Source of the DNA: Lentzea waywayandensis
GTDB lineage: Bacteria; Actinomycetota; Actinomycetes; Mycobacteriales; Pseudonocardiaceae
Assembly (NCBI RefSeq): GCF_900115955.1
Contig: NZ_FOYL01000007.1
Span: 186,001-250,000, forward strand
Length of the DNA stretch: 64,000 nt
Direction of reading: 5' to 3'
Shown here: piece by piece, positions 6,552 to 63,614 of the stretch
Position numbering within the stretch: position 1 is the stretch's first letter
Layout of the letters: each line of letters begins with the position of its first letter
Made by a program: the position numbers and the translations under genes
The notes under the pieces: model-generated
The model's database searches: none
What the model saw: the letters and a program-made list of their open reading frames with translations, nothing else
What the model was told of the DNA's origin: nothing

Positions 6552-6591
6552 TGCAAAAGACGTTTGCGGACGTCCGCAAACGTCTTTTGCA
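6552..6591. repeat. Perfect 40-bp palindrome of the dispersed hairpin family (copy 1)
   Basis: Two 20-base arms (left arm TGCAAAAGACGTTTGCGGAC) with no loop, centred between 6571 and 6572. The same 40 bases occur within 39116-39163. It lies between the convergent DUF2891 and iclR genes, 21 bases from an AT-rich element at 6613. Not followed by a U-tract. Confidence 0.95.
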
Positions 6592-6612
6592 TAAGGGCGG
6601 ACAAAACGGGCA

Positions 6613-6631
6613 CCGATATATTGGATTTCAG
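6613..6631. repeat. AT-rich element of the GATATATC family, overlapping the iclR stop
   Basis: CCGATATATTGGATTTCAG differs at one base from the reverse complement of 34531-34549. Bases 6628-6630 are the stop codon of the IclR gene, so the element contributes the end of that gene. Confidence 0.85.
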
Positions 6632-7392
6632 GTGCCTGACGACAACGTCGCGCGCCGGATCAGCGTCAGGGCGATGCCCGTCGCCGCCGCGTGCACCGAA
6701 GCCGCGTGCACGCGAGGGTCGAACCGCGTGGTCGGCCCGGCGACACTGACCGCGGCCACAACGGCACCGTCGTGACCGAGCACCGGCGACGCCACACAGG
6801 CGAGGCCGACCCTGGACTCCTCGAACTCGTAGGCCACCCCCGTCTGCCGGATCGTGGCCAGCTGACGCCGGAGCATGCCGGGCGTGACGACTGTGCGCGG
6901 AGTCCGGCGAGCCAAGGGGGCGGACAGGACTTCGGTGCGCAAGGACGGCTGGGAGTGGGCGAGCAGGGCCTTGCCGATCGCCGTCGCGTGCAGCGGCATG
7001 CGACCGCCCAGACGCGACGGTGAGGACGCCTGGCGGTGGCCGCCGATCTTGGCGGCGTAGACGACCTCGTGGCCTTCGAGGAGTCCGAGGTGGACGGTTT
7101 CGTGGGTGCGTTCGTAGAGGTCTTCCAGGTAGGGCGTGGACACCTCGACCAGGCGGCGTTCGACCGACGCGCGGATGCCCAGCTGGAACAGGTGACCGCC
7201 CAGGCGGTAGCCGCGCGTGCCCCGGTCGAGCAGGCGGACCTCGGCCAGGTCGCCCAGCAGGCGGTGCAGCGTCGCCTTCGACAGGCCGGTGCGTCTGCCC
7301 AGTTCCGCGAAGCCGAGCTCGTCGTCGTCGGCACCGAAGGCGTTCAGCACCGACATCACCTTGCCCAGCAGGGTGTTCGGTACCTCGGTCAT
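6628..7392 (-). CDS. IclR-family transcriptional regulator of the lower meta-cleavage operon
   Basis: About 254 residues with the IclR layout: an N-terminal winged helix (residues ~5-65, including LGFAELGRRTGLSKATLHRLL) and a C-terminal effector-binding domain with GGRMPLHATAIGKALLA and VGLACVASPV. The start is taken as ATG 7392; GTG 7395 is directly adjacent. It is divergent from the hydratase-dehydrogenase-aldolase operon, with a perfect palindrome between them (7410-7430), so it very probably senses a pathway aromatic or intermediate and controls that operon. Its stop codon lies inside an AT-rich repeat element. Confidence 0.92.
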   Translation of the reverse strand: MTEVPNTLLGKVMSVLNAFGADDDELGFAELGRRTGLSKATLHRLLGDLAEVRLLDRGTRGYRLGGHLFQLGIRASVERRLVEVSTPYLEDLYERTHETVHLGLLEGHEVVYAAKIGGHRQASSPSRLGGRMPLHATAIGKALLAHSQPSLRTEVLSAPLARRTPRTVVTPGMLRRQLATIRQTGVAYEFEESRVGLACVASPVLGHDGAVVAAVSVAGPTTRFDPRVHAASVHAAATGIALTLIRRATLSSGT

Positions 7393-7409
7393 CACCTGAT
7401 CGTGCCACC

Positions 7410-7430
7410 GAGTTCCGGTCAGCGGAACTC
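7410..7430. promoter_or_regulatory. Predicted IclR operator in the divergent iclR/mhpD region
   Basis: GAGTTCCG-GTCAG-CGGAACTC: perfect 8-base arms around a 5-base spacer. It is 18 bases upstream of the iclR start and 34 bases upstream of the hydratase start. This is typical placement for an autoregulating IclR protein. Confidence 0.72.
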
Positions 7431-7463
7431 CGAAGTCCCCACAGGACCGAGAACACCGCCACG

Positions 7464-8252
7464 ATGAGCGGCATGAACGAAGTCCTCATTGCAGCGGAGC
7501 GCCTGGCCACGGCGGCGCGCGAGAAGGTTCCGTGTGCGCCCGTGCGGGACCTCATCGGCGACGCCGAGGCCTACGCGGTGCAGCAGCACAACATCGCCGC
7601 GCGGATCGCGGACGGCGCCACAGTCGTCGGCCGCAAGATCGGCCTGACCTCTCCGGCGGTCCAGCAGCAGCTCGGGGTGGACCAGCCGGACTTCGGGGTG
7701 CTGCTCGACGACATGGCGTACAAGGACGGCGACGAACTGCCGGTGTCCGGTCTGTTGCAGCCGAAGATCGAGGCGGAACTGGCGTTCGTGCTGAAGGCGG
7801 ACCTCGCCGAGGGGCCGTTCGACGAGCAGACCGTCGCGAACGCCGTCGGGCACGTCAAGGCATCGCTGGAGATCGTGGACAGCCGGATCAGCGGCTGGGA
7901 CATCACCTTCGCCGACACCGTCGCGGACAACGCCTCGTCGGGGCTGTTCGTCCTCGGCACCGAGCAGGCGGATCTGGGTGAGGTCGTGCCGAAGAACGTG
8001 TCGATGGTGCTCAGCGTCAACGGCGAGGAACGTTCGGCGGGGTCCGGTGCCGCGTGCCTGGGCGACCCGCTGACCGCGCTGGCCTGGCTCGCCACGACCG
8101 CCGCGGACCTCGGCGCTCCGTTGAAGGCGGGCGACGTCGTGCTCAGCGGCGCGCTCGGCCCGATGGTCGGAGTCCAGGCGGGCGACCAGGTCGAGGCCAC
8201 GATCACCGGGCTCGGCACCGTGCGGGCCACTTTCGCGAAGCAGGAGGCGTGA
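7464..8252 (+). CDS. mhpD: 2-keto-4-pentenoate hydratase (MhpD-type)
   Basis: About 262 residues of the fumarylacetoacetate-hydrolase-like hydratase family. It adds water to 2-hydroxypenta-2,4-dienoate to give 4-hydroxy-2-oxovalerate. Recognisable segments are [19 protein letters not shown], the metal-site region [24 protein letters not shown], and [28 protein letters not shown] near the end. Start ATG 7464 (ATG 7473 also possible). It is the first gene of a tightly packed operon with MhpF and MhpE; its stop overlaps the next start (TGATG at 8250-8254). Controlled from the shared iclR/mhpD region. Confidence 0.95.
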
Positions 8253-9175
8253 TGCGCACGAAGGTCGCGATCATCGGGTCGGGCAACATCGGCACCGACC
8301 TCGTCATCAAGGTGCTCAAGCGGTCCACCACCCTGCAGGTGGCGGCGCTCGTCGGCATCGACCCCGAGTCGGACGGCCTCGCCAAGGCCCGCAAGCTCGG
8401 CGTTCCGACCACTTCGGACGGCATCCAGGGCCTGGTCGCGATGCCGGGGTTCGAAGAGATCGAGATCGTGTTCGACGCCACCTCCGCGGGCGCCCACGCG
8501 AAACACGCCGAAATCCTCGCCGCGCACGGCAAACGGGTCATCGACCTCACCCCGGCGGCGATCGGGCCGATGGTGGTGCCGACGGTCAACCTCGACGAAC
8601 ACCTGAGCGCGCCGAACGTCAACATGGTCACCTGCGGCGGTCAGGCCACGATCCCGATCGTCGCCGCGATCAACACGGTCACTCCCGTGCCGTACGCGGA
8701 GATCGTCGCCTCGATCTCGTCCCGAAGCGCGGGACCGGGCACGCGCGCGAACATCGACGAGTTCACCGAGACGACCGCGCAGGCCATCGCGGACGTGGGC
8801 GGCGCGCACAGGGGCAAGGCCGTCATCGTGCTCAACCCGGCCGACCCGCCGATCACCATGCGGGACACCGTTCTCGCACTCGTCAACGCACCGGATCCCC
8901 AGACACAGCACCGGATCCGCGCCTCCGTCGAGTACATGATCACCCAGGTGGCCGCCTACGTCCCCGGCTACCGCCTCAAACAGCCGGTTCAGATCGACCC
9001 GGTCGACCAGCCGCACACGCTCACCGAGGAACCGGTGACGCACCAGGTCACCGTGCTGCTGGAGGTCGAGGGCGCGGCCGACTACCTGCCTGCCTACGCG
9101 GGCAACCTGGACATCATGACCAGCGCGGCGCTGCGAGTCGCGGAGACCATGGCGAAGGCGGTCGTGCGCGCATGA
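8252..9175 (+). CDS. mhpF: Acetaldehyde dehydrogenase (acylating), MhpF-type
   Basis: About 307 residues. The Rossmann start [14 protein letters not shown] binds NAD. The catalytic Cys sits in [13 protein letters not shown], and [20 protein letters not shown] is conserved in the bacterial aldolase-dehydrogenase partners. It converts acetaldehyde, channelled from the aldolase, to acetyl-CoA. The ATG at 8252 shares bases with the MhpD stop, and its own stop overlaps the aldolase ATG (ATGA at 9172-9175). This is the usual sign of an operon whose products form the MhpE-MhpF (DmpFG-like) complex. Confidence 0.97.
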
Positions 9176-10176
9176 AGATCTACCTCCAGGACGTGACGCT
9201 CCGGGACGGCATGCACGCCCTGCGGCATCGCATCGATCCCCAGAAGGTCACCGAGATCGCCAGGGCGCTGGACCAGGCCGGAGTCGATGCCGTCGAGGTC
9301 TCGCACGGCGACGGCCTCAGCGGCGGATCGCTCGTCTACGGCCCCGGCAGCCACACCGACTGGGAGTGGATCGAGGCGGCCGCGGAAGCGTTGACCCAGG
9401 CCAAACTCACGACGCTGCTGCTGCCGGGCATCGGCACGCTCCACGACCTCAAGCGCGCCCACAGCCTTGGCGTGCGGTCCGTGCGCATCGCCACGCACTG
9501 CACCGAGGCCGACATCTCCGCCCAGCACATCGCCGGCGCGCGCGATCTCGGCATGGACGTGTCCGGGTTCCTGATGATGAGCCACCTCGCCGAACCGCAG
9601 GAGCTCGCTCGGCAGGCGAAGCTGATGGAGTCCTACGGCGCGAACTGCGTCTACGTAACGGATTCCGGCGGCCGTCTGCTCCCCCACGACGTCCGCACCA
9701 GGATCCGTGCCTACAAGGACGTGCTCGACGCCGACACCGAGATCGGCATCCACGCGCACGAGAACCTCTCACTAGCGGTGGCGAACTCCATCACCGCCGT
9801 CGAAGAAGGCGCTACCCGAGTCGACGCCTCCCTGGCCGGACTCGGCGCCGGAGCGGGGAACTGCCCCATCGAACCGTTCGTGGCCGTCGCGAACCTCCAG
9901 GAATGGCAGCACAACGCCGACCTGTTCGCGCTCCAGGACGCCGCCGACGACCTGGTCCGGCCGCTCATGGACCGCCCGGTCCGCGTCGACCGCGAGAGCC
10001 TCACCCTCGGCTACGCGGGCGTCTACGGCTCGTTCCTGCGCCACGCCGACACGGCCGCCCAACGCACCGGCGCCGACGTACGGACCCTCCTGCTGGAAGC
10101 CGGACGCCGGCGCTTGGTGGGCGGTCAGGAGGACATGCTGACCGACATCGCCCTGGACCTCACACGGCAAACGTAG
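9172..10176 (+). CDS. mhpE: 4-hydroxy-2-oxovalerate aldolase (MhpE-type)
   Basis: 334 residues, a TIM-barrel aldolase of the HMGL/DRE family. The start [12 protein letters not shown] carries the Arg-Asp of the metal site, and [16 protein letters not shown] carries the metal-binding histidines. It splits 4-hydroxy-2-oxovalerate to pyruvate and acetaldehyde, passing the latter to MhpF. It is the last gene of the three-gene operon. Its 3' end overlaps the 3' end of the convergent dioxygenase gene by 17 bp, and I see no terminator between them. Confidence 0.97.
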
Positions 10177-11092
10177 TTCCGATACCCATGCCGGTGATCC
10201 ACTCGGGCACCGGCTCGTAGCTCGTCCACACCAGCGGCAGGCCGACAGCGACCTGTCCGATGAGCCAGCAGCGGATCTCGTGCCCACCGCTGCCGGCGTG
10301 GTCCTCCAGCGCCTCGTGCCCGAGGGAGGCGATCTCACCGGCAGACCCCGCCGACAGCCGGTCGAGGAACCACCCGTCCCACACCGCGTTCACCTTCGCC
10401 TCGGGGTTGCCGCCCATGGCCTTCACCCGAGGCTCGCGCGCCGCGGCGAACTCCTTCGCGTACGCCCGTCCCCGGATCAACGACTCACGCCGCTCCCCCA
10501 CCACGGACGGATCGCGCGGGTCGTTGGACGGCAACCAGTGCGACAAGCCACCACTGGCGACGACCAGCACCCGTCCGGGAAACACCGACGACCGCAGCGC
10601 GGCTCCCAAAGCACGCCCCAGCTCCACGCACCTGTCCAGCGACGGCAACGGCGGCGCGGCCGTGTTGACCACCAACGGCACCAACGGAAGCGTCGTACCG
10701 CCGGTGATCATCTCGTAGCTCTGCACGATGCCGTGGTCGACGGTCAGCGAGTACGACAGCGACACGTCGAAGCCCGCGTCCGCCAGACCGCTGTGCGCCG
10801 ACCAGGCCAGCGTCTGGGCCACCGGTAACGGCCCCGAGCTGCTGCCGAAGTCACCGAACCCCACGGCTTCCTCGACCCCGAGCACGAACGGCGGCATCAC
10901 GTCGTAGAAGTTGGCGTGGAAGTGGTCCGGCCCGATCACGACGATCGCGTCCGGCGCCAGCTTCTCCACCGCCAGCCGCACGCGGTCCGCGTCGCGCAGG
11001 AACACCGACCCCGGCCCGTCGGAGCCGTCCGGTGGCAGCAGCGTCGCGAACGGGCTGTGCGACATCCCCGCGAATCCGATGATCTCTGCCAT
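10160..11092 (-). CDS. Class III extradiol ring-cleavage dioxygenase (LigB/MhpB-type)
   Basis: 310 residues. It contains the histidine-rich pattern of LigB-type Fe(II) dioxygenases: GMSHSPF near the N-terminus, [28 protein letters not shown] and [12 protein letters not shown]. By analogy with MhpB it cleaves a substituted catechol next to the hydroxyls. The start ATG 11092 overlaps the stop of the upstream hydrolase. It is the last gene of the operon SDR, cupin, hydrolase, dioxygenase. The true ring substrate is unknown. It resembles 2,3-dihydroxyphenylpropionate dioxygenases in length and motif order. Confidence 0.9.
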
Positions 11093-11976
11093 CAGGACGG
11101 GTCCTTTCCGTGCAGCAACCAGGTGCGGTGCGTGTCGAGGAACTCGGAGACCTTCTCCCACTGCGGCCAGTGCCCGGCGTCGTCGATGACGTGCAACCGC
11201 GCGTCGGGCAACCACTCCAGCAACATGTCGGCCTCGTCCAGCCCGCCCGTCGGGTCGTGGCTCGTCCACAGCAGCAGCGTCGGTGCCGCGACCTTGCCCA
11301 CCCACGCCGGGTCCCACGCGAAGTCCTTGCGCACCAATGGATCCTGCAACACCAGCGTGTTCGTGATCGCCTGCACGAACCCCGGCCGCGAGTACACCTG
11401 ACGACGCAGGTTCACCAGCTCGTCGGTGACCATCTCCTTGTGGTGGAACAGGAACTCCACCCGCCTGCGCACGGTCTCCTCGCTGGGATCGAGCACGGCG
11501 GCCATCGTGCTGTCCCGCATGCGTTGCATGACCTCGGGTTTGTTCGCGATGTTGCCGGGCGTGTTCAGCACGAGCCGGTCGACGCGGTCCGGGAAGTGCG
11601 CGGCGACCCACGCGACCACCCAGCCGCCCAGGGACTCACCGGACAGGTGCGTCTTCTCGACGCCCAGCGCGTCCAGCAGCCCCACGAGGTGCTCGGACAG
11701 CACGTCGATCGTGTACGGCAGGTCCGGCAGGTCGGACCAGCCGTGGCCGACCATGTCGTAGGCGGTGACGTGGAAGTCCTCCGCCAGTCCCGCGATGTCA
11801 CGGGAGTAGGCCTCCAGGTGGCCGCCGGTGCCGTGCAGCAGCACGAGTTCCGGTCCGGAGCCTGCCTGCAGGATCCTGGTCCGCACGGTGTGGCCGCGCA
11901 CCGGGACGTCGACGTGCCGCACGGCGTGGTCCACATGCGACAGTTCGCCCCAGATGCTGACGTGCTCGGGAATCAC
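11092..11976 (-). CDS. Alpha/beta hydrolase, probable meta-cleavage C-C hydrolase (MhpC/BphD-like)
   Basis: 294 residues with the alpha/beta-hydrolase triad: oxyanion region LLHGTGGHLEAY, nucleophile Ser in GESLGGW, an Asp around TSHDPTG, and His in DDAGHWPQWE near the C-terminus. In meta pathways this enzyme splits the ring-opened dienoate into a hydroxypentadienoate, which MhpD uses, and an acid. The start is GTG 11976, preceded by a strong GGGGAGG. It overlaps the upstream cupin stop (GTGA) and the downstream dioxygenase ATG. The family call is firm; the C-C bond specificity is inferred from context. Confidence 0.9.
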   Translation of the reverse strand: MIPEHVSIWGELSHVDHAVRHVDVPVRGHTVRTRILQAGSGPELVLLHGTGGHLEAYSRDIAGLAEDFHVTAYDMVGHGWSDLPDLPYTIDVLSEHLVGLLDALGVEKTHLSGESLGGWVVAWVAAHFPDRVDRLVLNTPGNIANKPEVMQRMRDSTMAAVLDPSEETVRRRVEFLFHHKEMVTDELVNLRRQVYSRPGFVQAITNTLVLQDPLVRKDFAWDPAWVGKVAAPTLLLWTSHDPTGGLDEADMLLEWLPDARLHVIDDAGHWPQWEKVSEFLDTHRTWLLHGKDPS

Positions 11977-12500
11977 TGGTCCTCCCCAGAAGTATCGAAA
12001 CGGGCACGAGCCTCGTCGAACGTCGCGAGGCCGGCGCTCTGCCTGCGGGCGAGCCCGAACAGCGCGAGCAGCCGGGAGTTCTCGATGGTGAGGAACTCGA
12101 CGGGGTGCTCGGTGGAGTCGTTGTAGTGACGGTGCCAGGTCCACGGCGGCGTGTAGACGAACGAGCCGGAAGTCCACGACACCGTCCCGAACTTGTCCGG
12201 TTCGGCGTCCTGGATCTCGCTGTGGCCGTCGCCGGAGATCACGAAGTGCACGGTCTCGTGGTAGTGCCGCTGCATGTCCGAGCTCTCGCCGCCTGGGATC
12301 ACCTGGCGGAACAGCTCGAACGTCGACGTCGGCAGTTTGCCCGCGATCCGCAGCGTCGTCGGGTTCGGCACCGCGCCCGGCGGGATCGTCTCCAGCTCGT
12401 CGTCGTGCACGACCAGCGGTCGCCCGCCGTCGGGCCGCACCGCGTGCGTGAGCGCCCCGAGGAAGTCGGTCATGGCGAAGTCGGGTCCTGAGGTGGCCAA
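11973..12500 (-). CDS. Cupin-domain protein of the catabolic operon
   Basis: About 175 residues with a single cupin barrel. The motif MQRHYHETVHFVISGDGHSE supplies the likely metal-binding His/Glu set, and PPWTWHRHYND the second half. Such proteins in aromatic clusters can be ring dioxygenases or isomerases, or have no assigned role. The start is set at TTG 12500 because AAAGGGA lies just upstream, immediately after the SDR stop; ATG 12473 is the alternative. It overlaps the hydrolase start by 4 bases. Exact reaction unknown. Confidence 0.82.
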   Translation of the reverse strand: MATSGPDFAMTDFLGALTHAVRPDGGRPLVVHDDELETIPPGAVPNPTTLRIAGKLPTSTFELFRQVIPGGESSDMQRHYHETVHFVISGDGHSEIQDAEPDKFGTVSWTSGSFVYTPPWTWHRHYNDSTEHPVEFLTIENSRLLALFGLARRQSAGLATFDEARARFDTSGEDQ

Positions 12501-12514
12501 CGCGATCGTCCCTT

Positions 12515-13285
12515 TCAGACTGAGGTTTCGGTGCGGCCGCCGTCGACGGTCAGCACGGTGCCGTTGACGTACGAGGCCTGCGGTGAAGCCAGAAACGCCA
12601 CAGCGGCGGCGATCTCGCTCGGATCCGCCGCACGCAGGGCCGGGATGTCCGCGAGGTCGTGCGCGGCCGCGGTGTCGAGGTCCACGCCCGCGGCCTCGGC
12701 CCTGCGCCGCAACACCTCCAGCCGTCGAGGCGTCAGGGTCGCGCCGGGAGCGACGCAGTTGACCGTGACGCCGTTCGCCGCGAACTGCCGCGACGCGAGC
12801 TTCATCGCCGACGTCACGGCCGCGCGCAGCACCGTCGACGACGCGAGGCCGGGTTGCGGCTGCCGCACGGCGGTCGACGTGATCACCACTGCCCGGCCGA
12901 ACCCGCGCCGTGCCATCAGCGGCAACGCCTCGCGCAGCAACGCCAGCGGCCCGAGCAGCAACAGGTCGAGGTCGCGGTGCCACTGCGCGTCCGGCACCTC
13001 GAAGACCCCGCCCGGCGACGGTCCGCCCGCGTTCACGACCAGCACGTCGAGCGAGCCGAACCGGTCGGCGACGTCGCCGGCGACAGCGGTGGCCTCACCG
13101 GGATCGGCGAGGTCGCAGACGAGGTAGTCGGCGCCGAGGGGCGCGGCCGTCTCCTTGAGGGTGGCTTCGGTGCGTCCGGCCAGCACGACGCGGTGCCCGC
13201 TCTCGACGAGCGCCGCGGCCGTCGCCGCACCGATTCCGCCGGCGCCGCCCCCGACGAGTGCGACCCGCGTGGTGTTTGCGTCCAT
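12515..13285 (-). CDS. Short-chain dehydrogenase/reductase lacking the usual Tyr-x-x-x-Lys
   Basis: 256 residues. It has the NAD(P)-binding start VALVGGGAGGIGAAT, the NAG motif in VLVVNAGGPSPGG and the end motif YVNGTVLTVDGGR. After the catalytic-Ser strand (VVITSTAVRQPQ) the position where YxxxK is expected reads SSTVLRAAV, so the catalytic Tyr and Lys are absent; a subgroup of SDR-like proteins shares this. It is the first gene of the - strand operon, and a predicted IclR operator lies 43 bp upstream. It might oxidise a diol, or act by a different mechanism, or not be a dehydrogenase. Confidence 0.88.
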   Translation of the reverse strand: MDANTTRVALVGGGAGGIGAATAAALVESGHRVVLAGRTEATLKETAAPLGADYLVCDLADPGEATAVAGDVADRFGSLDVLVVNAGGPSPGGVFEVPDAQWHRDLDLLLLGPLALLREALPLMARRGFGRAVVITSTAVRQPQPGLASSTVLRAAVTSAMKLASRQFAANGVTVNCVAPGATLTPRRLEVLRRRAEAAGVDLDTAAAHDLADIPALRAADPSEIAAAVAFLASPQASYVNGTVLTVDGGRTETSV

Positions 13286-13324
13286 GAGCTCCTACAGTCG
13301 CCGTGTGCGAATGGTCGACCAAGG

Positions 13325-14107: not shown

Positions 14108-14115
14108 CCGGGACT
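14097..14115. promoter_or_regulatory. Predicted IclR operator, site B
   Basis: AGTCCCACTAGCCGGGACT, overlapping the iclR stop codon and 70 bp upstream of the flavoprotein gene start at 14185. Same palindrome as sites A and C. Confidence 0.72.
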
Positions 14116-14184
14116 TCTGGTTGGCCGTGGACAGCGAAGCGCTCCACAGTGTGGTCCGTCACATCCTCACTCAGGAGGACCAGG

Positions 14185-16470: not shown

Positions 16471-16471
16471 A

Positions 16472-16500: not shown

Positions 16501-16504
16501 CTCG

Positions 16505-22183: not shown

Positions 22184-22254
22184 GATATATCAGCCTCCCT
22201 GAACAGCACCTTTGCAACAGGTCTTTTGACTTCGTCCGCAAAAGACCTGTTGCA
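22184..22254. repeat. Composite repeat: GATATATC motif plus hairpin (copy 2)
   Basis: GATATATC at 22184-22191, then a 16-bp perfect stem at 22213-22228 and 22239-22254 (TGCAACAGGTCTTTTG and its complement) around ACTTCGTCCG. It lies just upstream of the acetyltransferase gene, in inverted orientation to the copy downstream of it. Confidence 0.93.
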
Positions 22255-23100: not shown

Positions 23101-23183
23101 CTTAGCAATGAGTCTTTTGCGGACGAAGTCTAAAGAGTCATTGCTAAGCAGCAAGTCAGCAGCGTCGCGGGAACTGATATATC
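23101..23183. repeat. Composite repeat: hairpin plus GATATATC motif (copy 3)
   Basis: A 17-bp stem with one mismatch, 23101-23117 with 23132-23148 (CTTAGCAATGAGTCTTT), around TGCGGACGAAGTCT. GATATATC is at 23176-23183. In reverse complement the loop (AGACTTCGTCCGCA) matches copies 2 and 6. Located between the convergent acetyltransferase and ROK genes. Confidence 0.92.
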
Positions 23184-32479: not shown

Positions 32480-32880
32480 CCCTCACCGATATCCAATACA
32501 TCGCACCACGCGATATGCCATATACCGCAAATCGCGGCCACGGATGACAACGTTGTCTTCTCTGGCCCAGAGTTCCGCGATATCCAATACATCGCGCATC
32601 CAGCTGGTCCGCCGAGATGGCCCGTCAGGCTGGCCTGCCAGGCTGACCCAAACGCGATACACCCTGCATACAGGCTGTCGACGCCCCGCATGCGATGCGT
32701 CGACCACGACCACACCGCAGCCATACCCCAGCCATACTGCGGCCACGCCACCAGCACACCACCGCAGCCGCACTGATATATCGAATACTGGCCACCCCGG
32801 CAGCCCGACCCGCCGACCCGGCTCCCCAGTGCGATATTTCGGGCCATCCAATACCCGATATATCGGGTATTGGATATCGG
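32480..32880. other. 401-bp intergenic region filled with AT-rich GATATC-type repeats
   Basis: Lies between the convergent AfsR-like and pimB genes. It contains GATATCCAATACATCGC at 32488-32504 and at 32579-32595, a GATATGCCATATACCGC segment near 32512, GATATATC at 32775-32782, GATATTTC at 32833, and a 30-bp perfect palindrome at 32846-32875. Short frames in it lack support. It looks like a nest of the dispersed element. Confidence 0.85.
32846..32875. repeat. Perfect 30-bp palindrome centred on GATATATC
   Basis: Arms of 15 bases, left arm ATCCAATACCCGATA, with no loop. The centre is GATATATC (32857-32864). It ends 5 bases before the pimB stop, so it could also act as a shared hairpin. Confidence 0.93.
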
Positions 32881-39115: not shown

Positions 39116-39208
39116 CTTATGCAAAAGACGTTTGCGGACGTCCGCAAACGTCTTTTGCATAAGGATGGATAAGGGCAGGTCAACGGCGGTGGCGGCAACC
39201 GATATATC
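39116..39208. repeat. Composite repeat: 48-bp perfect palindrome plus GATATATC (copy 4)
   Basis: The palindrome spans 39116-39163 with 24-base arms and no loop. It contains the same 40 bases as copy 1, extended by CTTA on one side and TAAG on the other. GATATATC is at 39201-39208. It lies between the DnaQ-UvrC gene and the Lrp-like gene, both on +. Confidence 0.95.
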
Positions 39209-52624: not shown

Positions 52625-52669
52625 GGCTTCCCAGTCTGTCCGGGTGATACCTGGCAGATTTCCTGGTCC

Positions 52670-52723
52670 ACACGCGGAGAGGCCGCGTTCCCGTCGATGC
52701 GGGAACGCGGCCTCTCCGCGTGT
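52670..52723. terminator. Very strong 24-bp hairpin terminator
   Basis: Perfect 24-bp stem, 52670-52693 with 52700-52723 (starting ACACGCGGAGAGGCCGCG), around TCGATG. It lies downstream of the - strand erpA (stop 52729) and after the small + gene. Confidence 0.9.
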
Positions 52724-52728
52724 TCGCC

Positions 52729-53241: not shown

Positions 53242-53359
53242 GATATATCAGCCGGCCGCACGCACGGTTCTACCTCGACTCTTATCGCGACCACTGCGTG
53301 GCCACGTGCCGGGCCGTTGCAATGAGACTTTTGCGGGCGTCCGCAATCGACTTTTGCAC
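53242..53359. repeat. Composite repeat: GATATATC plus hairpin (copy 5), partly inside a gene
   Basis: GATATATC is at 53242-53249, upstream of erpA. The hairpin-like part (53317-53359) has core TTGCGG-GCGT-CCGCAA at 53331-53346 and degenerate outer arms (TGCAATGAGACTT, TCGACTTTTGCA). It is inside the 3' end of the glycerate kinase gene. Confidence 0.82.
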
Positions 53360-54316
53360 AGAGCCGACGTGGTCGGACACCGAGTAGGCGGCCTGGACGC
53401 CGGCTGCGCCCATCTCGCGGCGGCCGACGCTGACCTGGCCCGCGACGGCGAGGCACGGGATGCCGCGTTCGGCGGCGCCCGAGGCGACGGCGGTGATGAG
53501 CTTGCCGCGCAGTGACTGCCAGTCGAAGCTGCCTTCGCCGGTGATGACGACGTCGGCGTCGTCGAGGGCGGCGTCGAGGCCGGCGAGTTCGCGGACGAGG
53601 CCCGCGCCGGACGTCACCGTCGCGCCCAGCGAGAGGAGCGCGGCGCCCAGGCCGCCCGCCGCTCCGGCGCCCGACATGTCGGCTACTGGTTTGAGGACGT
53701 CCATGGCGGCGAGCTTCGCTTCGAGACGTTCCACGGCTTCCGGGGACGCACCCTTCTGCGGGCCGAACGTGCGCGCGGCGCCGTGCGGGCCGAGGAGCGG
53801 GTTCTCGACGTCGGAGGCGGCCACCAGCGATATATCAGTGAGGTCGACGCCCGCGTCCGACACAGCGGCGAGCATGCCGGCGCCGCCGTCGGTCGTGCCG
53901 GAGCCGCCGAGGCCGACCGTGATGACATCGTTGTCATTCGCCGCTGCCGCGATGAGTTCGCCGACGCCTCGCGTCGTTGCCGTCTCGCAGGACTGCGGGC
54001 GGAGGTCCGCGGGGATGAGGTGGAGGCCGCACGCCTCGGCGGACTCGATGTAGGCAACGCGTCGACCGTCTGCGTGCACGCTGAGCCAGCGTGCCTCGAC
54101 AGGAACTCCGAGCGGGCCGGTGACGCTGATATATCGGATTTCGCCGTTCGTGGCGACCTGCAGGACGTCCACGAAGCCGGGTCCTCCGTCGGCCAGGGGA
54201 CGTTGGGTGACGACGTCGTCGGGCTTGGCGTCGTGCCAGCCGGTGGCGATGGCGTCAGCGGCCTCGCGAGCGGTCAGGGTGCCGCCGAAGCAGTCCGGAG
54301 CGATGAGTACGCGCAC
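53282..54316 (-). CDS. Glycerate kinase (GckA/GlxK family, Rv2205c-like)
   Basis: 344 residues. Begins MRVLIAPDCFGGTLTAREAA (family start), then ADGGPGFVDVL, TVGLGGSGTTDGGAGML, GAAGGLGAALL and VVITGEGSFDWQSLRGK, all typical of type I glycerate 2-kinases. The last ~30 residues (SVQKSIADARKSLIATARH onwards) are encoded by a copy of the dispersed palindrome. Two GATATATC motifs at 53829 and 54128 lie inside the gene in different reading phases. The catalytic core appears intact. Confidence 0.92.
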   Translation of the reverse strand: MRVLIAPDCFGGTLTAREAADAIATGWHDAKPDDVVTQRPLADGGPGFVDVLQVATNGEIRYISVTGPLGVPVEARWLSVHADGRRVAYIESAEACGLHLIPADLRPQSCETATTRGVGELIAAAANDNDVITVGLGGSGTTDGGAGMLAAVSDAGVDLTDISLVAASDVENPLLGPHGAARTFGPQKGASPEAVERLEAKLAAMDVLKPVADMSGAGAAGGLGAALLSLGATVTSGAGLVRELAGLDAALDDADVVITGEGSFDWQSLRGKLITAVASGAAERGIPCLAVAGQVSVGRREMGAAGVQAAYSVSDHVGSVQKSIADARKSLIATARHVATQWSR

Positions 54317-54358
54317 CTCGCGAAAGGTACAGAAGAACCACTGTCCTACCCTGTCGTT

Positions 54359-55617: not shown

Positions 55618-55650
55618 CAGCACGAACGATTTCGGTTTAAGCTCCGATGT

Positions 55651-56637: not shown

Positions 56638-56638
56638 T

Positions 56639-56839
56639 CTAGCCGGCCGAGTGCAGGCTCATCGGGCCGTACACCTCGGATTCCGAGCGCAGCAGCGTGA
56701 CCTGTTCGACCCCGGCGTCGAGCAGGTCACGCCACTGCGCGCTGAACCAGTCCTCGGCCTCGGCCTGCTCGGCGAACGTCACATCCGGGCCCGCGACGTC
56801 GCGTCCCTGTGCATCCTGGTAGCGCCAGCGGTAATCCAC
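56639..56839 (-). CDS. Small conserved hypothetical protein
   Basis: 66 residues: [46 protein letters not shown] and the tail [13 protein letters not shown]. Acidic and aromatic-rich, no membrane segment. Begins at GTG 56839. Convergent with the aldo/keto reductase (1 bp apart) and divergent from cobU. Looks like a real small soluble protein of actinobacteria with unknown role. Confidence 0.75.
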
Positions 56840-56855
56840 GGACGAAGGCTAACTC

Positions 56856-57395
56856 TTGTCATCTCGGACGCTCGTGCTCGGCGGAGCGCGGTCAGGCAAG
56901 TCGGCGCACGCGGAAGGTCTGCTCACCGAGGCGGCCGTGACCTACGTCGCAACCGCGCGCAGATACCCGGACGACCCCGACTGGGACGCACGCATCGCGC
57001 TGCACGTCGCGCGGCGTCCGTCCACTTGGCACACGGTCGAGGCGTCGGCTCCGGCCGACCTGCCGGCGTTGCTCACCGCGACGCAGTACGAGGACCCGCC
57101 GATCCTGGTGGACGACCTGTCGACGTGGCTGGTCGGCGTGCTCGACGACGCCGACGCGTGGGAGGGCGACGGCGCCGAGGCGATCGCGGGCGACATCGAC
57201 GCGATCGTGCGCTCGGTCGCGACCTGCCGGGCGCGACTGGTGCTCGTGACGGCGGAGGTCGGCCTCGGCGTCATTCCGTCGACGCGCTCTGGCAGGCTCT
57301 TCCGAGATCACCTCGGTGCGCTCAACGCGCGCGTCGCCGAGGTGTGCGACGAGGTCACCTTGCTCGTCGCCGGCATCCCGTTGAAACTGCGATGA
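56856..57395 (+). CDS. cobU: Adenosylcobinamide kinase / adenosylcobinamide-phosphate guanylyltransferase
   Basis: 179 residues. P-loop [14 protein letters not shown] at the start, VTYVATARR, then VDDLSTWL and the late [19 protein letters not shown]. CobU phosphorylates and then guanylylates adenosylcobinamide in nucleotide-loop assembly of cobalamin. The TTG 56856 start has no Shine-Dalgarno; GGCTAACTC just upstream could be a -10 for a leaderless mRNA. First gene of cobU-cobT-cobS; the stop overlaps the longer cobT frame. Confidence 0.94.
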
Positions 57396-57406
57396 GGAGT
57401 GACCAG

Positions 57407-58450
57407 GTGAGCACCGAGTTCCCGCCGGTCGAACCGCCGGACGAGACCGTTCTGCGCGAGGCCGAGGCCCGGCACGCGGTGCTGACCAAGCCGGTCGGCT
57501 CGCTCGGAAGGCTCGAGGAGCTGGGCAACTGGATCGCCGCCTGTCAGGGCGTCGTACCGCCCAAGCCGTTCGTGCGGCCGCGTGTCGTCGTGTTCGCGGG
57601 CGACCACGGCATCACCGCTCAGGGCGTGTCGGCGTTCCCGAGCGAGGTGACCGGCCAGATGGTCGCGAACTTCCTGACCGGCGGCGCCGCCGTGAACGTG
57701 CTCGCGCAGGTCGCGGGTGCCACGGTGCGCGTGGTCGACATGGCCGTCGACGCGGACACCCCGGCCGCGGTCAGCCAGCACAAGGTGCGGCGCTCGTCCG
57801 GGTCGATCGACCGCGAGGACGCGCTCACCCGTGAGCAGTGCGAGCTCGCGATCGCGGCCGGCCGTGCGCTGGCCGACGAGGAGGTCGACGCGGGCGCCGA
57901 CGTGCTCGTCGCCGGTGACATGGGCATCGGCAACACGACGCCCGCCGCCGTGCTGATCGCGTCGCTGACCGGGTCGGAACCCGTCGCGGTCGTCGGACGC
58001 GGCACCGGCATCGACGACCAGGCGTGGATGCGCAAGACGGCGGCGATCCGGGACGCGCTGCGCCGGGCCCGCCTCGTGATCAGCGACCCGATCGCGTTGC
58101 TCGCGACGGCCGGTGGCGCCGACATCGCCGCGATGGCGGGGTTCCTGGCGCAGGCCGCTGTGCGGAAGACGCCGGTCGTGCTCGACGGCGTCGTCGTGGG
58201 TGCGGCGGCTGTCGTGGCCGAGGAGCTGGCGCCTGGGGCGCGTGAGTGGTGGGTGGCCGGGCACGAGTCGGCCGAGCCCGCGCACGCGATCGCGCTCGGG
58301 CACCTCAACCTGAAGCCGCTGCTGGAGTTCGGAATGCGGCTCGGTGAAGGCTCCGGTGCCGTGGCGGCGCTGCCGTTGCTGATCTCGGCGGTGAAGGTGC
58401 TCGCGGAGATGGCGACGTTCGAGAGCGCCGGCGTCACCAACAAGGAATGA
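57407..58450 (+). CDS. cobT: Nicotinate-nucleotide-dimethylbenzimidazole phosphoribosyltransferase
   Basis: 347 residues. [43 protein letters not shown] with catalytic-region residues and [13 protein letters not shown]. It activates the lower-ligand base by ribosylation for cobalamin. GTG 57407 has GAGGAG 7 bases upstream; ATG 57392, overlapping the cobU stop, is the alternative. 10 bp before cobS. Confidence 0.97.
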
Positions 58451-58460
58451 AGCTTCGCCC

Positions 58461-59162
58461 TTGAAACTGGCACTGTCCTGGCTGACCGTCCTGCCGCTGC
58501 GTGTCGACGACGTCGACCGCAAAGCGGCGGGGCGGGCCATCGCGTGGACACCGCTCGTCGGCGTCGTGCTCGGCGCCTTCGTCGTCGGCGTCCTCAAGCT
58601 GCTTGCGATATCCAATATATCGGCGCTCGTGGCCGGGTTCCTGGTCGTCGGCGTCGTCGCACTGTCGACACGCGGTATGCACCTCGACGGGCTTGCCGAC
58701 GTCGCCGACGGGCTCGGTTGCTACGGGCCGCCGGAGCGTGCGCTCAAGGTCATGAAGGACGGCGGCGCCGGACCGTTCGGCGTGGTGTCGCTGATCGTGG
58801 TGCTGGGCGCGCAGGCCGCCGCACTCCCCCACGCTCAGTGGGGCGTCGTCCTGCTGGCGTTCGCGACGAGCCGGGCGGCGTTCGGCATCTGTTGCATGCG
58901 CGGTGTGCCTGCCGCACGGCCTGAGGGGCTCGGTGCGCTCGTTGCGGGCACTCAGCATCCGTTGATGGTCATCGGCACGTGGGTGGTGCTCGCTGCTGCG
59001 GCGATTCCGCTCGGGTGGCGCGCGGTCGTCGCCGTCGTCGTCGCGTTCGCGCTCGTGTGGGTACTGGTGCAGCACACCAGAAAGCGTTTCGGCGGCATCA
59101 CCGGTGATGTGCTCGGTGCTGCCGCCGAAATCGCGCTTCTGGCCGTGCTGGTGATCGCCTGA
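58461..59162 (+). CDS. cobS: Adenosylcobinamide-GDP ribazoletransferase
   Basis: 233 residues with several membrane helices. The family motif is MHLDGLADVADGLGCYG (Asp residues bind Mg), followed by ALKVMKDGGAGPFGVV. It joins GDP-cobinamide and alpha-ribazole to complete cobalamin. Starts at TTG 58461. The 17-mer GATATCCAATATATCGG (58607-58623) is part of the coding sequence (AISNIS in a membrane segment), identical to that in the Rv2189c-like gene. Confidence 0.95.
   Translation: MKLALSWLTVLPLRVDDVDRKAAGRAIAWTPLVGVVLGAFVVGVLKLLAISNISALVAGFLVVGVVALSTRGMHLDGLADVADGLGCYGPPERALKVMKDGGAGPFGVVSLIVVLGAQAAALPHAQWGVVLLAFATSRAAFGICCMRGVPAARPEGLGALVAGTQHPLMVIGTWVVLAAAAIPLGWRAVVAVVVAFALVWVLVQHTRKRFGGITGDVLGAAAEIALLAVLVIA
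58607..58623. repeat. Long form of the AT-rich element inside cobS
   Basis: GATATCCAATATATCGG, the same 17 bases as 34532-34548, in an otherwise GC-rich gene. Confidence 0.88.
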
Positions 59163-59172
59163 CCCCAGAGCC

Positions 59173-60264
59173 CTAGGAGTGCAGCACCGTCATCCAGCCG
59201 TGGGTGTCGGCGACGTGGCCGTGCTGGAGGCCGGTCAGGCGCTCGCGCAGTTGCTTCGTCACCGAGCCGGTGCCGCCGTCGGCGATGTCGAACTCGCCAC
59301 CGGCGTGCTTGACGTGGCCGACCGGCGTGATGACCGCGGCCGTGCCACAGGCGAAGACCTCGGTGAGCTCACCGGAGGCGTTGGCCTTCTCCCACTCCTC
59401 GGTCGAGATGCGGCGCTCCTCGACGGTCAAGCCGAGCTCGGAGGCCAGTTCCAGCAGCGAGCTCCGGGTGATGCCGGGCAGCAGCGTGCCGGTCAGCTCG
59501 GGCGTGATCACCTTGTCCCCGAAGACGAAGAACAGGTTCATGCCGCCCATCTCCTCGACCCAGCGGCGTTCCACCGCGTCGAGCCAGACGACCTGGTCGC
59601 AGCCCTTCTCGGCGGCCTGCGCCTGCGCCACGAGGGACGCGGCGTAGTTGCCGGCGAACTTGGCCGCGCCGGTGCCACCGGGGGCCGCGCGGACGTACTC
59701 GGTCGAGAGCCACACGCTCACCGGGCGGACGCCGCTCGCGAAGTAGGAGCCGGCGGGGGAGGCGATCAGCACGTAGAGGTACTCGGACGCGGGTCGCACG
59801 CCGAGGCCCTTCTCCGTGGAGATCATGAACGGCCGCAGGTAGAGGGACTCCTCCTCGGCCGAGGGCACCCAGCGGTCGTCGACCGCGAGGATCTGCCGCA
59901 CGGACTCCAGGAAGAGCTCGTCGGGAAGTTCGGGCATCGCCATGCGGCGGGCCGAGGCGCGGAAGCGCTCGGCGTTGGCCTCAGGGCGGAAGGACGCGAT
60001 CGAACCGTCGGGCTGCCGGTAGGCCTTGAGCCCTTCGAAGATCGCCTGGCCGTAGTGCAGCACCATTGCCGCGGGGTCCAGTGCGAGAGTGGAGTACGGG
60101 CCGACTTCAGCGTCGTGCCAGCCCTGCTCGCGGTTCCAGCGGATCGTCACCATGTGATCGGTGAAGTGCTGCCCGAAGCCCGGCTTGGCAAGTACCTCCG
60201 CTACGCGCTCCGGGGTCGCCGGGTGCGGGTGGGGAGTCCGGGTGAAAGGCAACTCGCTCGTCAT
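59173..60264 (-). CDS. ilvE: Branched-chain amino acid aminotransferase
   Basis: 363 residues of the fold type IV PLP family. [17 protein letters not shown], the PLP-binding Lys in [27 protein letters not shown] and [16 protein letters not shown]. It interconverts branched-chain amino and keto acids. Start ATG 60264 ([11 protein letters not shown]); a longer frame is unlikely. Convergent with cobS, 10 bp apart, with no clear terminator between. Confidence 0.97.
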
Positions 60265-60356
60265 GAGAGCACGGTAACCCGCAGGTGGGGATACGGAAAA
60301 TCGTCTTCCCAAAACTCGGACGTCCTACTAAGTCAACCTCGATAGAGTCCCCGGCC

Positions 60357-60626
60357 ATGACCGAGGCGGAAAGATCTTCGAAGGGTGCGGACGTCCGCAC
60401 CGTGCTGCAGGCCGCGCTGCTCGTTCTGGGCACCGGCATGACGTTCCTCGACGGATGGGTGCTCGGCGGCGTCGGTGGTGTGGTGGGTGCCGTGATCGCC
60501 GCCGCCGTCTTCCTGGCCGTCTACTGGGCGCTCATCAAGGAGAAGGAGTCCACCAACGGCCGCATCATCGGGCTTGCGGTGTGTGTTGGCGTGACGCTGC
60601 TCGTTTTCCTCTCAGCAACGCTGTGA
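60357..60626 (+). CDS. Small three-helix membrane protein (DUF3017-like)
   Basis: 89 residues: TVLQAALLVLGTGMTFLDGW, GAVIAAAVFLAVYWALI, then IIGLAVCVGVTLLVFLSATL form three membrane segments. The short length, the position near ilvE and the charge pattern suggest DUF3017, but this is tentative. TAGAGT (60343-60348) 8 bases before ATG 60357 suits a short leader. Its last 62 bp overlap the permease gene on the opposite strand. Confidence 0.8.
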   Translation: MTEAERSSKGADVRTVLQAALLVLGTGMTFLDGWVLGGVGGVVGAVIAAAVFLAVYWALIKEKESTNGRIIGLAVCVGVTLLVFLSATL

Positions 60627-61800
60627 GGCCGATGAGCCCGGTACCGATGCCGAGTCCCGCGATCGAGATGAGCATCGCGGGCACCGGCATGCTCATGGCG
60701 AGCAGCACCGAGAGCCCGAGTCCGAGACAAGCCGTGCGCATGGGCCACGTGCGGTCGTTCTGCAGCAGGACTCGAGCCGACGCGTTCGTGAAGGCGTAGT
60801 AGAACAACGTCCCGCAGGCCGCCACGCCCAGCGCCGTCCTCAACGGCATCAGCACGACGGCGAGTGCGGAAGCGACGACCACGACGAGCGTCAGCGCGCC
60901 GGGCTTGAGGCGGGTCGGCAGGTCGCCGTCCTCGGTCAGTCCGGTCAGGGTGCGGTGGGCGGACGCGAGAACGAAGTGCAGCGCGGCCACCCCGGCCACC
61001 GCCGCGGCGATCTGCACGAGCGGCACCAGCGCGGCCGAGTCCGCTGCGACGAGGGCGTCGCGCAACGGGGCCGGTGACAATGCGAGACGCGCGCTACCGA
61101 GCTGCCGAAGCACACCGGCGCCCACCGCGAGACAGACCACGAACGACAGTCCGATGAGGACCGGAATCGCGATCTTCAGCACGGACGGCGCGTGGTGCTT
61201 CTCCCCTCGATTCGGAGCGGTGATGCGTTCGAAACCGGCGAACGCCATGAACATCAGGCCGGCGACGCCGACGAGTTCGTTGACGGTGCCCGCCTCCCCC
61301 GCCGACGGCACGGGCGCGATCGAGAAGCTCGCCGCGACGACCAACGCGAGCACGCCGAGGACGACCACGGACACCAGCACGCTGACGCCCGCGGTGAAGC
61401 GGAAGCCGGCCGCGCCGAGCAGCGCCGTCGCGACGACCAGTGCGAGTGCGCCGATCATCGGCTGGTCCGGCACCACGTACGCGCCGAACATCGACGCCAC
61501 CGCGGCCGCCATGGCGCACCGGCCCAGAAGGTGTGCGCTCGCCGTCATCCGTGCGGGCCACACGCCGAGCTGCGCGCGCACGTATCCGTAACCGCCGCCG
61601 ACGTCCGGGTAGGCGCGCGACTGGTCCGCGGTCGAGAAGGCCGAGCAGAGAGCGGCTAGCGCGGAGATGGCCAGCGCCGGGAGCACCCACCAGCCCGCAA
61701 GGCCTGCGGCTGGGGCGAATCCGGCGAAGACCCCCGCTCCGAGCACCGCGGGAAGACCGAGCGCGACCGCCGTGACGATCTCGCGAGGCGTGTGGGTCAC
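60565..61800 (-). CDS. APC-superfamily amino acid permease
   Basis: 411 residues and about 11-12 membrane helices. AVLGAGVFAGFAPAAGLAG matches the helix 1 G-x-G motif (GSGIF-like), SRAYPDVGGGYGYVR the helix 3 region, and AFAGFERITAPNRGEKHHA the F-x-G-E helix 6 region. Likely a proton-coupled amino acid transporter; substrate not readable. GTG 61800. 3' overlap with the small membrane gene. Confidence 0.9.
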   Translation of the reverse strand: MTHTPREIVTAVALGLPAVLGAGVFAGFAPAAGLAGWWVLPALAISALAALCSAFSTADQSRAYPDVGGGYGYVRAQLGVWPARMTASAHLLGRCAMAAAVASMFGAYVVPDQPMIGALALVVATALLGAAGFRFTAGVSVLVSVVVLGVLALVVAASFSIAPVPSAGEAGTVNELVGVAGLMFMAFAGFERITAPNRGEKHHAPSVLKIAIPVLIGLSFVVCLAVGAGVLRQLGSARLALSPAPLRDALVAADSAALVPLVQIAAAVAGVAALHFVLASAHRTLTGLTEDGDLPTRLKPGALTLVVVVASALAVVLMPLRTALGVAACGTLFYYAFTNASARVLLQNDRTWPMRTACLGLGLSVLLAMSMPVPAMLISIAGLGIGTGLIGLTALLRGKRAASRQHTPQAR

Positions 61801-61999
61801 CGGTACACATTCTCAGATGCGGCATCCGGCCGTAACCACCCGGTCGACTGATGCGTGAAACGGGCGAATCGCCACTGTGCGCAACTGTCAACGTCACGGA
61901 TTGCGGCGATCGGGGCGGGGCTGGGCATTAGTGGGACAGTCCGACCTTTAGCATGAGTCACGATTCCGAGCCCCGCACGCAACAACCCTGGAGCAGCAC

Positions 62000-63472
62000 G
62001 TGACAGCCCCGAAGCTGGCCCTCACCGAGGGTGATCTGAGCACCACCGCCGCGGACGCAGTCGTCGTGGGCACCCTGCAGGGTGCGGACGGTCTGGAGCT
62101 CGCCCCCGGTGCCGAAGCTGTCGCCGCCGCGTTCGACGGCGCGCTGCTCGACGTGCTCGGCACCCTGCGCGCGTCCGGCAAGGCCGACGAGCTGGTGAAG
62201 GTGCCGACGTTCGGCAAGATCGCCGCTCCGCTCGTGCTGGCCGTAGGCCTCGGCAAGACCGCCGGTGAAGAGCAGGTGCGCCGTGCGTCCGGTGTCGCCG
62301 CCCGTGCGCTGGGCGGCAAGAAGCGCGCGATCAACACGCTCGCCGCGCTGCACGTCGGTGCGGCGGCCGAGGGCACGCTGCTCGGCGCCTACTCGTTCAC
62401 CGAGTACAAGTCCGACAAGGGCGAGGGCCCGGTCGCGAAGGTCGACCTGCACGCCGCCGGTTCCAAGGAGAACAAGGCCGCGCTGAAGGCCGCCGTCGCG
62501 ATCGCCGAGTCCGTCGCCATCGCGCGTGACTTCATCAACACGCCGCCGAACGACCTCTACCCCGCTTCGTTCGCCGCCCGCGCGGAGAAGCTCGCCACCG
62601 CGGCCGGTCTCGACGTCGAGATCCTCGACGAGAAGGCGCTGAAGAAGCAGGGCTTCGGCGGCATCCTGGGTGTCGGTGTCGGTTCGACGCGCCAGCCGCG
62701 CCTCGTGCGCATCTCGTACAAGGGCACGAAGGCCGTCAAGAAGGTCGCGCTCGTCGGCAAGGGCATCACGTTCGACACCGGCGGCATCTCCATCAAGCCG
62801 GCCGCGGGCATGGACGAGATGACCTCGGACATGTCGGGTGCCGCCGCGATCGTCGCCACGATGGTGCTCGCCGCGAAGCTCAAGTACCCGCTGGAGATCA
62901 TCGCGTCGATCCCGATGGCGGAGAACATGCCGTCCGGTGACGCCTACCGCCCCGGCGACGTGCTGACCATGTACGGCGGCAAGACCGTCGAGGTGCTCAA
63001 CACCGACGCCGAGGGCCGCCTGATCCTGTCCGACGCCATCGTGCGCGCGTGCGAGGACAACCCCGACTACCTGATCGAGACCGCGACGCTGACCGGCGCG
63101 CAGGTCGTCGCCCTCGGCAAGCGCACCTCGGGCGTCATGGGCTCCGACGAGTTCCGCGACCGCGTCGCCGCCATCGGCACCGCCGTCGGCGAGTCGGCGT
63201 GGGCGATGCCGCTGCCCGAGGAGCTGCGCGCGGACCTCGACTCGCGCCTGGCGGACCTCGCGAACGTCACCGGGCACCGCTGGGGCGGCATGCTCGCCGC
63301 CGGGCTGTTCCTGCGCGAGTTCGTGGCCGAGGGCGTGCAGTGGGCGCACATCGACATCGCCGGTCCGGCATTCCACACGGGTGGCCCTTACGGATACACC
63401 TCGAAGGGCGGCACCGGCGTTCCGGTGCGGACCATCGCGGCTGTTCTGGCGGACATCGCCGCTAACGGCTGA
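62000..63472 (+). CDS. pepB: Leucyl aminopeptidase (M17)
   Basis: 490 residues. The two-metal site is clear: [31 protein letters not shown] and the family signature [21 protein letters not shown] and [19 protein letters not shown] complete the C-terminal domain. It removes N-terminal Leu and other residues, probably as a hexamer in the cytosol. GTG 62000 follows CTGGAG. Position matches mycobacterial pepB (Rv2213). A hairpin terminator with a TTCG loop follows. Confidence 0.97.
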
Positions 63473-63488
63473 GCCATTCTTTCCGCAC

Positions 63489-63522
63489 AACGGGCGGAGC
63501 TCCTTCGGGGGCTCCGCCCGTT
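63489..63522 (+). terminator. Terminator after the aminopeptidase gene
   Basis: 15-bp stem AACGGGCGGAGCTCC with one G-T pair to its partner, closed by TTCG. Confidence 0.93.
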
Positions 63523-63533
63523 GCGTTGCAACT

Positions 63534-63614
63534 GATATATCGGCTGCTTCAGCGTTGCTGACCAGCACCTTTGCAACAGGTCTTTTGACTTCGTCCGCAA
63601 ACGTCCCGTTGCAA
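63534..63614. repeat. Composite repeat: GATATATC plus hairpin (copy 6)
   Basis: GATATATC at 63534-63541. Hairpin arms 63571-63587 and 63598-63614 (left TTGCAACAGGTCTTTTG) around ACTTCGTCCG, with a few mismatches. The left arm and loop match copy 2. It lies after, and separate from, the terminator. Confidence 0.92.

Follow-up and report, generated by a model that had tools for sequence, protein, structure and literature searches.

A 64-kb stretch of the genome of Lentzea waywayandensis (NZ_FOYL01000007.1, positions 186001-250000; hereafter the window, analysed at its full length) carries two families of short sites, a palindrome (A) and an AT-rich motif (B). Both are largely restricted to one domain of ~385 kb, lie close to each other far more often than expected by chance, recur at syntenic places in other species and are present at the genes of two regulators encoded within the domain. 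The interpretation that we prefer, with a probability of about one half, is that A and B would be dispersed operators of these two local regulators, acting as domain-wide architectural sites. A sequence-only reading of the window had described six copies of a two-part repeat as an undescribed family; the family is real and apparently undescribed, nothing relevant to the motif or the system having been found among the literature matches listed.

Two families of sites in the window

The window corresponds to C14:186001-250000 of genome G000 (10.15 Mb in 33 contigs). The genomes compared with it include G156, the sole single-contig Lentzea genome (10.0 Mb; its contig ends do not join), and G051 (L. 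xinjiangensis). Copies of A were called with an iterated profile, using C14 seeds first and then its own hits, B sites were scored with a 26-bp matrix at a cut-off of at least 10 bits, and 39 samples of G156 (778 kb) served as the control for the counts of both.

A is a palindrome of about 46 bp. Reading of the profile hits revealed that each copy is composed of two inverted halves, of type X (CTTTGCAATGAGTCTTTTGACTTCG-like) or type Y (GGATGCAAAAnACGTTTGCGGACG-like), combined as X-X, X-Y or Y-Y. The profile search detected exactly six copies in the window (E values of 4e-08 to 9e-12), i.e. all of those previously proposed, each in its place:

6552-6594, minus strand: A copy 1, perfect palindrome of type Y-Y, between convergent open reading frames (ORFs)
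22211-22254, plus strand: A copy 2, in the gap separating same-strand ORFs
23104-23147, minus strand: A copy 3, between convergent ORFs
39117-39160, plus strand: A copy 4, perfect palindrome of type Y-Y
53317-53358, minus strand: A copy 5, lying in the 3'-terminal part of the minus-strand ORF for glycerate kinase (53282-54316)
63570-63614, plus strand: A copy 6, preceded by a distinct GC-rich hairpin (63488-63523)

By reading (no terminator scan was run), a T-run follows the hairpin at none of the six copies. At gathering scores, Rfam models gave no match in the window, and the arm of A corresponds to words found in regulator promoters (see below); both results speak against a structured RNA, one of two functions that had been suggested for the repeat, and the match of the arm favours the other, a protein target site.

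The core of B is RATATATY, commonly CCGATATATCAG, often with an outer GATATCC/GGATATC; GATATATC is the core word as counted exactly. The window (69% GC) contains 12 exact copies of GATATATC and 20 B-type sites of at least 10 bits, of which six adjoin an A and 14 do not:

6615-6622: B paired with A copy 1, GATATATT, 26.4 bits
22184-22191: B paired with A copy 2, 19.2 bits
23176-23183: B paired with A copy 3, 26.0 bits
39201-39208: B paired with A copy 4, 28.6 bits
53242-53249: B paired with A copy 5, directly beyond the glycerate kinase stop, 22.8 bits
63534-63541: B paired with A copy 6, 25.7 bits
1108-1115: B without A, 25.3 bits
18822-18829: B without A, 23.2 bits
32495-32502: weak B-type site, clustered, 14.6 bits
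32586-32593: weak B-type site, clustered, 14.7 bits
32775-32782: B, clustered, 21.8 bits
32857-32864: B centred in a perfect 30-bp palindrome (32846-32875), 27.8 bits
34539-34546: B within an ORF, 28.4 bits
44324-44331: B with no called ORF, coding likely by eye, 23.9 bits
46927-46934: weak B-type site, 18.1 bits
47009-47016: weak B-type site, 14.9 bits
51024-51031: B within an ORF, AATATATT, 21.6 bits
53829-53836: B within the glycerate kinase ORF, 23.5 bits
54128-54135: B within the glycerate kinase ORF, 23.0 bits
58614-58621: B within an ORF, AATATATC, 27.2 bits

Confinement to one domain of the chromosome

A search of the genome revealed copies beyond the window as well, the sites spanning one domain of ~385 kb. 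A is present 23 times in the window's genome (21 copies on C14 and two on C31), 18 times in the first 820 kb of G156 (17 of them inside the domain) and 12 times in 400 kb of G051; the profile search found none in the control samples. When up to three mismatches to the A core were allowed, all nine matches in the window's genome were located on C14. The 42 exact copies of GATATATC in this genome comprise 34 on C14, four on C31 and four elsewhere. The 185-200 kb region of C31 is syntenic with ~223-237 kb of G156 and is therefore part of the same domain; the C14 copies at 413-429 kb fall beyond the domain edge. In G156, 41 of the 49 exact copies lie within 182-566 kb.

At 10 bits or more we counted 61 B sites in C14 0-325 kb and 67 in G156 180-566 kb, numbers that are partly a product of construction, because sites of C14 and G156 served to build the matrix; there were five such sites in the 400 kb of G051 and two in the 778-kb control. 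An unbiased k-mer contrast between the G156 domain and the remainder of that genome placed B words at the top and A words next.

Across the genus, the exact B word CYGATATATCRG was found in all 24 Lentzea genomes (1-34 copies each, and none of a control word read backwards), its positions being known among the matches listed. In 143 genomes of other genera it was present in 0-2 copies (31 genomes with a match; the control matched in 9), and the A core, with up to one mismatch, was present in none of the 143. The exact A core was also retrieved from a contig collection, in 67 stretches: 40 from Lentzea, two from Nocardia (NRRL S-836), one from Blastococcus and 24 unrelated, mostly with single copies.

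Some of these occurrences deserve separate mention. The record of Nocardia sp. NRRL S-836 (L098, L100; NZ_LGDY01000125.1) contains the Lentzea A core twice and is perhaps a misnamed Lentzea. The exact 18-bp core is also present on four contigs (L037, L043, L058, L077) of an unrelated Latescibacterota metagenome-assembled genome, Baikal-deep-G205, which is unexplained. Copies of GATATATC are crowded in one gene past the domain edge, three at G000:C14:413105-413211 and four at G156:C1:733451-733772, and the length of the stretch that holds them varies between species.

Pairing and position relative to genes

The B core lies 24-72 bp from the edge of each of the six A copies in the window. On C14, 19 of 21 A copies have a B within 100 bp, compared with 2.1 expected (maximum 8 in 2000 random intergenic placements), and the corresponding figures for G156 are 13 of 17 and 1.3 (maximum 7; random intergenic placement). 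The A farthest from any B (810 and 803 bp) fits the copy in the promoter of the regulator gene P0001 described below. The association of the two parts of the proposed repeat is thus well beyond chance; the parts themselves, however, are two separate site families and not one element, 14 of the 20 B sites of the window having no A.

According to rough ORF calls, the 21 A copies of C14 are distributed between convergent (8), same-strand (9) and divergent (2) ORFs and in-ORF or other positions (2), as compared with intergenic shares of 14% convergent, 47% same-strand and 39% divergent. The same calls for the 17 copies of G156 gave 6, 9, 1 and 1, with shares of 20%, 58% and 22%. One of the two C14 copies classified as divergent is that of the P0001 promoter; the other is window copy 5, truly in-gene at the 3' end of the glycerate kinase gene, whose strand was misread in the rough calls. 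A bias towards gene 3' ends, as noted earlier for the repeat, holds for A, although copy 5 occupies the last codons of a gene; B is also found well inside genes.

Conservation and selection at the DNA level

Syntenic recurrence in G156 was observed for 13 of 21 A copies (0.8 expected) and 50 of 61 B sites (6.9 expected), and in G051 for 12 of 19 A copies (0.7 expected) and 6 of 57 B sites (1.1 expected).

In-gene B sites arise through base substitution at fixed places. Of the 39 motif codons at 13 in-ORF sites, 32 are not the same in C14 and G051 (11 changes synonymous, 21 not, mostly to the isoleucine codon ATA), versus 412 of 1115 flank codons; one of these sites (C14:240128) was misframed, and without it 29 of 36 codons differ (10 synonymously, 19 not). 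G156 keeps B, and there 14 of 39 motif codons and 435 of 1113 flank codons are changed relative to C14. The idea that in-gene changes are mostly synonymous is contradicted by the ratio of 21 to 11. The frequency of ATA per 1000 codons is 0.46 in the C14 domain, 0.40 in the G156 domain, 0.24 in G051 and 0.26 in the controls; a domain-specific excess was rejected, as the domain flanks are equally high (0.43-0.52).

A regulator predicted to bind A

The product of g0092, P0001 (C14:121696-122436, minus strand), is encoded 63.6 kb to the left of the window, adjoining lexA, and contains the domains HTH_38 (1e-13) and MarR_2 (6.5e-07). One A is located in its promoter. Orthologs with 84-100% identity are present in 20 of the 24 Lentzea genomes, and an A precedes the start by 30 bp in all 20. 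The gene divergent to the regulator encodes a cytochrome P450 (Pfam 1.5e-25) at all 20 of these loci, in G165 and at 11 of 24 loci of other genera.

The promoters of 24 homologs from other genera (39-49% identity) contain the words CATTGCA (18/24) and GCAATGA (17/24), counts that we take as support and not as a P-value test; both words are part of the outer arm of A, and neither was found in two control windows (0/24). A paralog of P0001 on C22 (42%) has TTGCAA sites in its own promoter.

In genome G105, precisely the regulator and the P450 gene are missing between lexA and the next gene. No A core was found genome-wide in G105 (up to one mismatch), nor any A in the 10 kb read at the locus; 18 B sites are kept despite the loss of P0001 and the A core. 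Where the regulator-P450 pair is missing (G105:C41 near 119.2 kb; L272), a B site lies within the 87 bp that are left. In G165 (C17 near 140.9 kb; L262), a strongly diverged regulator and P450 are found beside lexA.

In G156 the B range extends over 182.1-565.5 kb, and the P0001 gene (377.6-378.3 kb) sits ~4 kb from its midpoint. With increasing distance from the gene, RATATATY occurs 14, 13, 11, 10, 0, 0, 3, 5 and 1 times, and A 6, 3, 3, 5, 0, 0, 0, 1 and 0 times, per 50 kb (the last bins being unequal). Judged from these comparisons, the likeliest role of A is that of a predicted operator of P0001, with a site at the regulator's own promoter that is conserved in Lentzea.

A candidate regulator for B, and the loss of B

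P0002 (C14:174920-175549, minus strand; GntR and FCD domains) is encoded 10.5 kb to the left of the window, and its gene adjoins that of a pyridoxal phosphate (PLP)-dependent enzyme (PALP; by reading similar to 1-aminocyclopropane-1-carboxylate deaminase). A B site at C14:175538 overlaps the P0002 start codon; it is unchanged in G051 and G163 and present in G156. B stands at this start codon, overlapping coding sequence, in all five loci that were read through, and the B-poor genomes G051 and G163 keep it there. P0002 is our candidate for the binder of B, an assignment that could go either way. The ArsR gene g0077 was rejected as an alternative, its B site in G156 not being at the promoter.

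The earlier reading had proposed looking for a linked transposase or a dedicated binding protein. The genome search provided one candidate binder each for A and B; no transposase, of the RAYT family or other, was seen among the ORF starts read by eye, no systematic search having been made.

Only one exact CYGATATATCRG is present in three genomes, G051, G163 and G165. In a lexA tree of 22 genomes, in which 13 of 19 inner branches are weak, G163 is nested with the B-bearing G123, G166 and G153 (100/99), G051 is placed elsewhere and G165 forms the most distant row. Since G163 and G051 fall apart in this tree, B was probably given up at least twice. At 25 B sites, G051 differs from C14 in 114 of 300 motif bases versus 481 of 2500 flank bases; for the B-bearing G156 the values are 36 of 264 versus 450 of 2200 (22 sites), and two B sites beside A in G163 show 8 changes in 24 motif bases versus 11 in 200 flank bases.

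Location of the domain on the chromosome

The sign of the GC skew on C14 switches at about 260-300 kb, as would be expected if the sites marked the replication terminus. The sequence ATAATCTACATTATGTCAA, which we take to be dif from its likeness to the dif consensus, is present in exactly one exact copy in each of the 24 Lentzea genomes. It lies on another contig in the window's genome (G000:C29:163624-163642) and at 7.66 Mb in G156 (G156:C1:7661587-7661605), where dnaA is found opposite, at 2.90 Mb. In this genome the domain spans 0.18-0.57 Mb, ~2.5 Mb away from dnaA; assuming a circular chromosome, its distance to dif is ~2.5 Mb as well. Because the dif-like site lies elsewhere in both genomes in which this could be checked (G000 and G156), the domain is not Ter, and a terminus macrodomain is scarcely credible; this rejection depends on the contig order of G156 and on the dif call being right. 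A search with dif patterns in C14 and in the first 820 kb of G156 gave nothing convincing, and the replichores could not be told apart by oligomer or third-position skews.

Other palindromes

A GC-rich hairpin at window positions 52670-52723 (24-bp perfect arms, 6-nt loop) is unrelated to A. Outside the domain, three near-perfect hairpins of 57-61 bp (G000:C14:334916-334976, G000:C22:271684-271744 and G000:C22:290815-290871) have different arms and a common loop, like GACACGCTTTTCGTC, and possibly represent another family of long palindromes.

Proposed function and alternatives

In the interpretation that we prefer, A and B would be operator-type sites for two regulators encoded within the domain, dispersed roughly 190 kb to both sides. 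P0001, with its HTH_38 domain and MarR winged helix, would bind A, and P0002 (GntR/FCD) would probably bind B. Proteins bound to the paired sites, most of which lie at gene 3' ends, and to the in-gene B-only sites would bridge DNA, and the bridging would fold the ~385-kb mid-replichore stretch, or mark it, as one domain in a manner resembling that of MatP/matS. Binding and bridging, like any consequence for folding or segregation, are what we infer from the sequences. A wider proposal, which we put forward tentatively, is that this may be a new kind of chromosome domain: mid-replichore and set in cis by paired operators of two metabolic-type regulators turned domain organisers, with selection recoding genes and one site family lost as a set at least twice.

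Several observations weigh against this interpretation. Exact copies of GATATATC also occur outside the G156 domain (two at 54-56 kb, five at 733-785 kb and one at 4.45 Mb), and the A range in G156 (223-566 kb; midpoint ~394 kb, median 406 kb) is less central than that of B. The words CATTGCA and GCAATGA were chosen post hoc for being the most enriched, among homologs that are related to one another, hence our reading of the counts as support, and 4 of the 24 homolog promoters lack the A word set. The co-occurrence of the A core with P0001 covers seven genomes (six with both, one with neither), G152, G164 and G165, which also have no ortholog, lying outside this sample. G051 retains P0002 though most of its B sites are gone, and coding constraint could keep B at P0002, because it overlaps the first codons. 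Around the C22 paralog of P0001, none of the domain motifs was found within 50 kb. The last result rules out that each HTH_38-MarR paralog marks a domain of its own, and dispersal would therefore be peculiar to the Lentzea P0001 lineage and not shared by the whole family.

The sites could instead be decoy operators that titrate both regulators near their own genes and thereby determine how the P450 and PLP-enzyme units respond, the confinement reflecting the highest regulator concentration near the gene. The operator-like nature of sites that are mostly away from promoters, and the location of both candidate genes in the domain, fit such a role; titration needs neither the adjacency of A and B, nor a sharp edge near 190 kb, nor the recoding of genes, and we consider it unlikely. 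It is more doubtful that A is a locally copied palindrome, resembling repetitive extragenic palindromic (REP) elements, derived from the P0001 operator and without domain function, B being a separate matter. The copies are alike, with interchangeable halves within ~46 bp, and species differ in having or lacking some of them as a block; however, most are old, 13 of 21 and 12 of 19 being at the syntenic place in G156 and G051, respectively, they are paired with a motif which itself arises by substitution, and A is lost where P0001 is absent (one case tested).

A further, still less probable alternative is that complexes at A and B form roadblocks at gene 3' ends that halt read-through or convergent transcription. 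The proportion of A copies between convergent ORFs (8/21 in C14 and 6/17 in G156, versus intergenic shares of 14% and 20%, by rough ORF calls) agrees with this explanation, which accounts neither for the many B sites in genes nor for the lack of a T-run at the six copies; moreover, nothing known restricts such a need to this region.

Comparison with known systems

The two B-rich genomes that were examined have 17-23 A copies and 61-67 B sites per domain, which makes the system a large one, and natural losses of either part exist: G105 has no A core, and G051, G163 and G165 have one exact B each. If the preferred interpretation is true, the origin of a macrodomain site system becomes testable, since here it seems to have grown from a regulator's own operator.

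REP elements, bacterial interspersed mosaic elements (BIMEs) and Rickettsia palindromic elements are intergenic palindromes, often at gene 3' ends. The likeness to them that had been suggested for the repeat was not borne out: the Lentzea sites are restricted to one domain and not genome-wide, B arises by substitution, also in genes, A is operator-like and paired with a second motif, and 13/21 A and 50/61 B are syntenic in a second species. The sites of parS/ParB, SlmA and Noc are region-biased, dispersed protein sites tied to the origin or to terminus exclusion; their sequences differ from A and B, and the Lentzea domain has no ParB-type candidate. To our knowledge, the known domain-specific site systems belong to origin, terminus or division control.

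The matS sites of Escherichia coli (13 bp, 23 copies) extend over 800 kb, the Ter macrodomain, and are bound by MatP (PMC3330122). Among the known systems, the Lentzea system would be closest to this one in its working, and it resembles it in having short palindromic sites repeated across one large domain and rare elsewhere. It differs in that the domain is mid-replichore and without dif, the sites form two paired families, and the candidate binders are of MarR and GntR type, encoded in the domain, each having a site at its own gene; because the domain is not Ter, the Lentzea sites are not a member of the matS system. GalR of E. coli regulates metabolism, and its dispersed operators have been proposed to bring remote DNA segments together and to organise the chromosome (PMC5110547). 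The Lentzea candidates would share with it a metabolic type of regulator with scattered operators; in contrast to the GalR operators, which are spread chromosome-wide, the Lentzea sites fill one domain and lie mostly off promoters.

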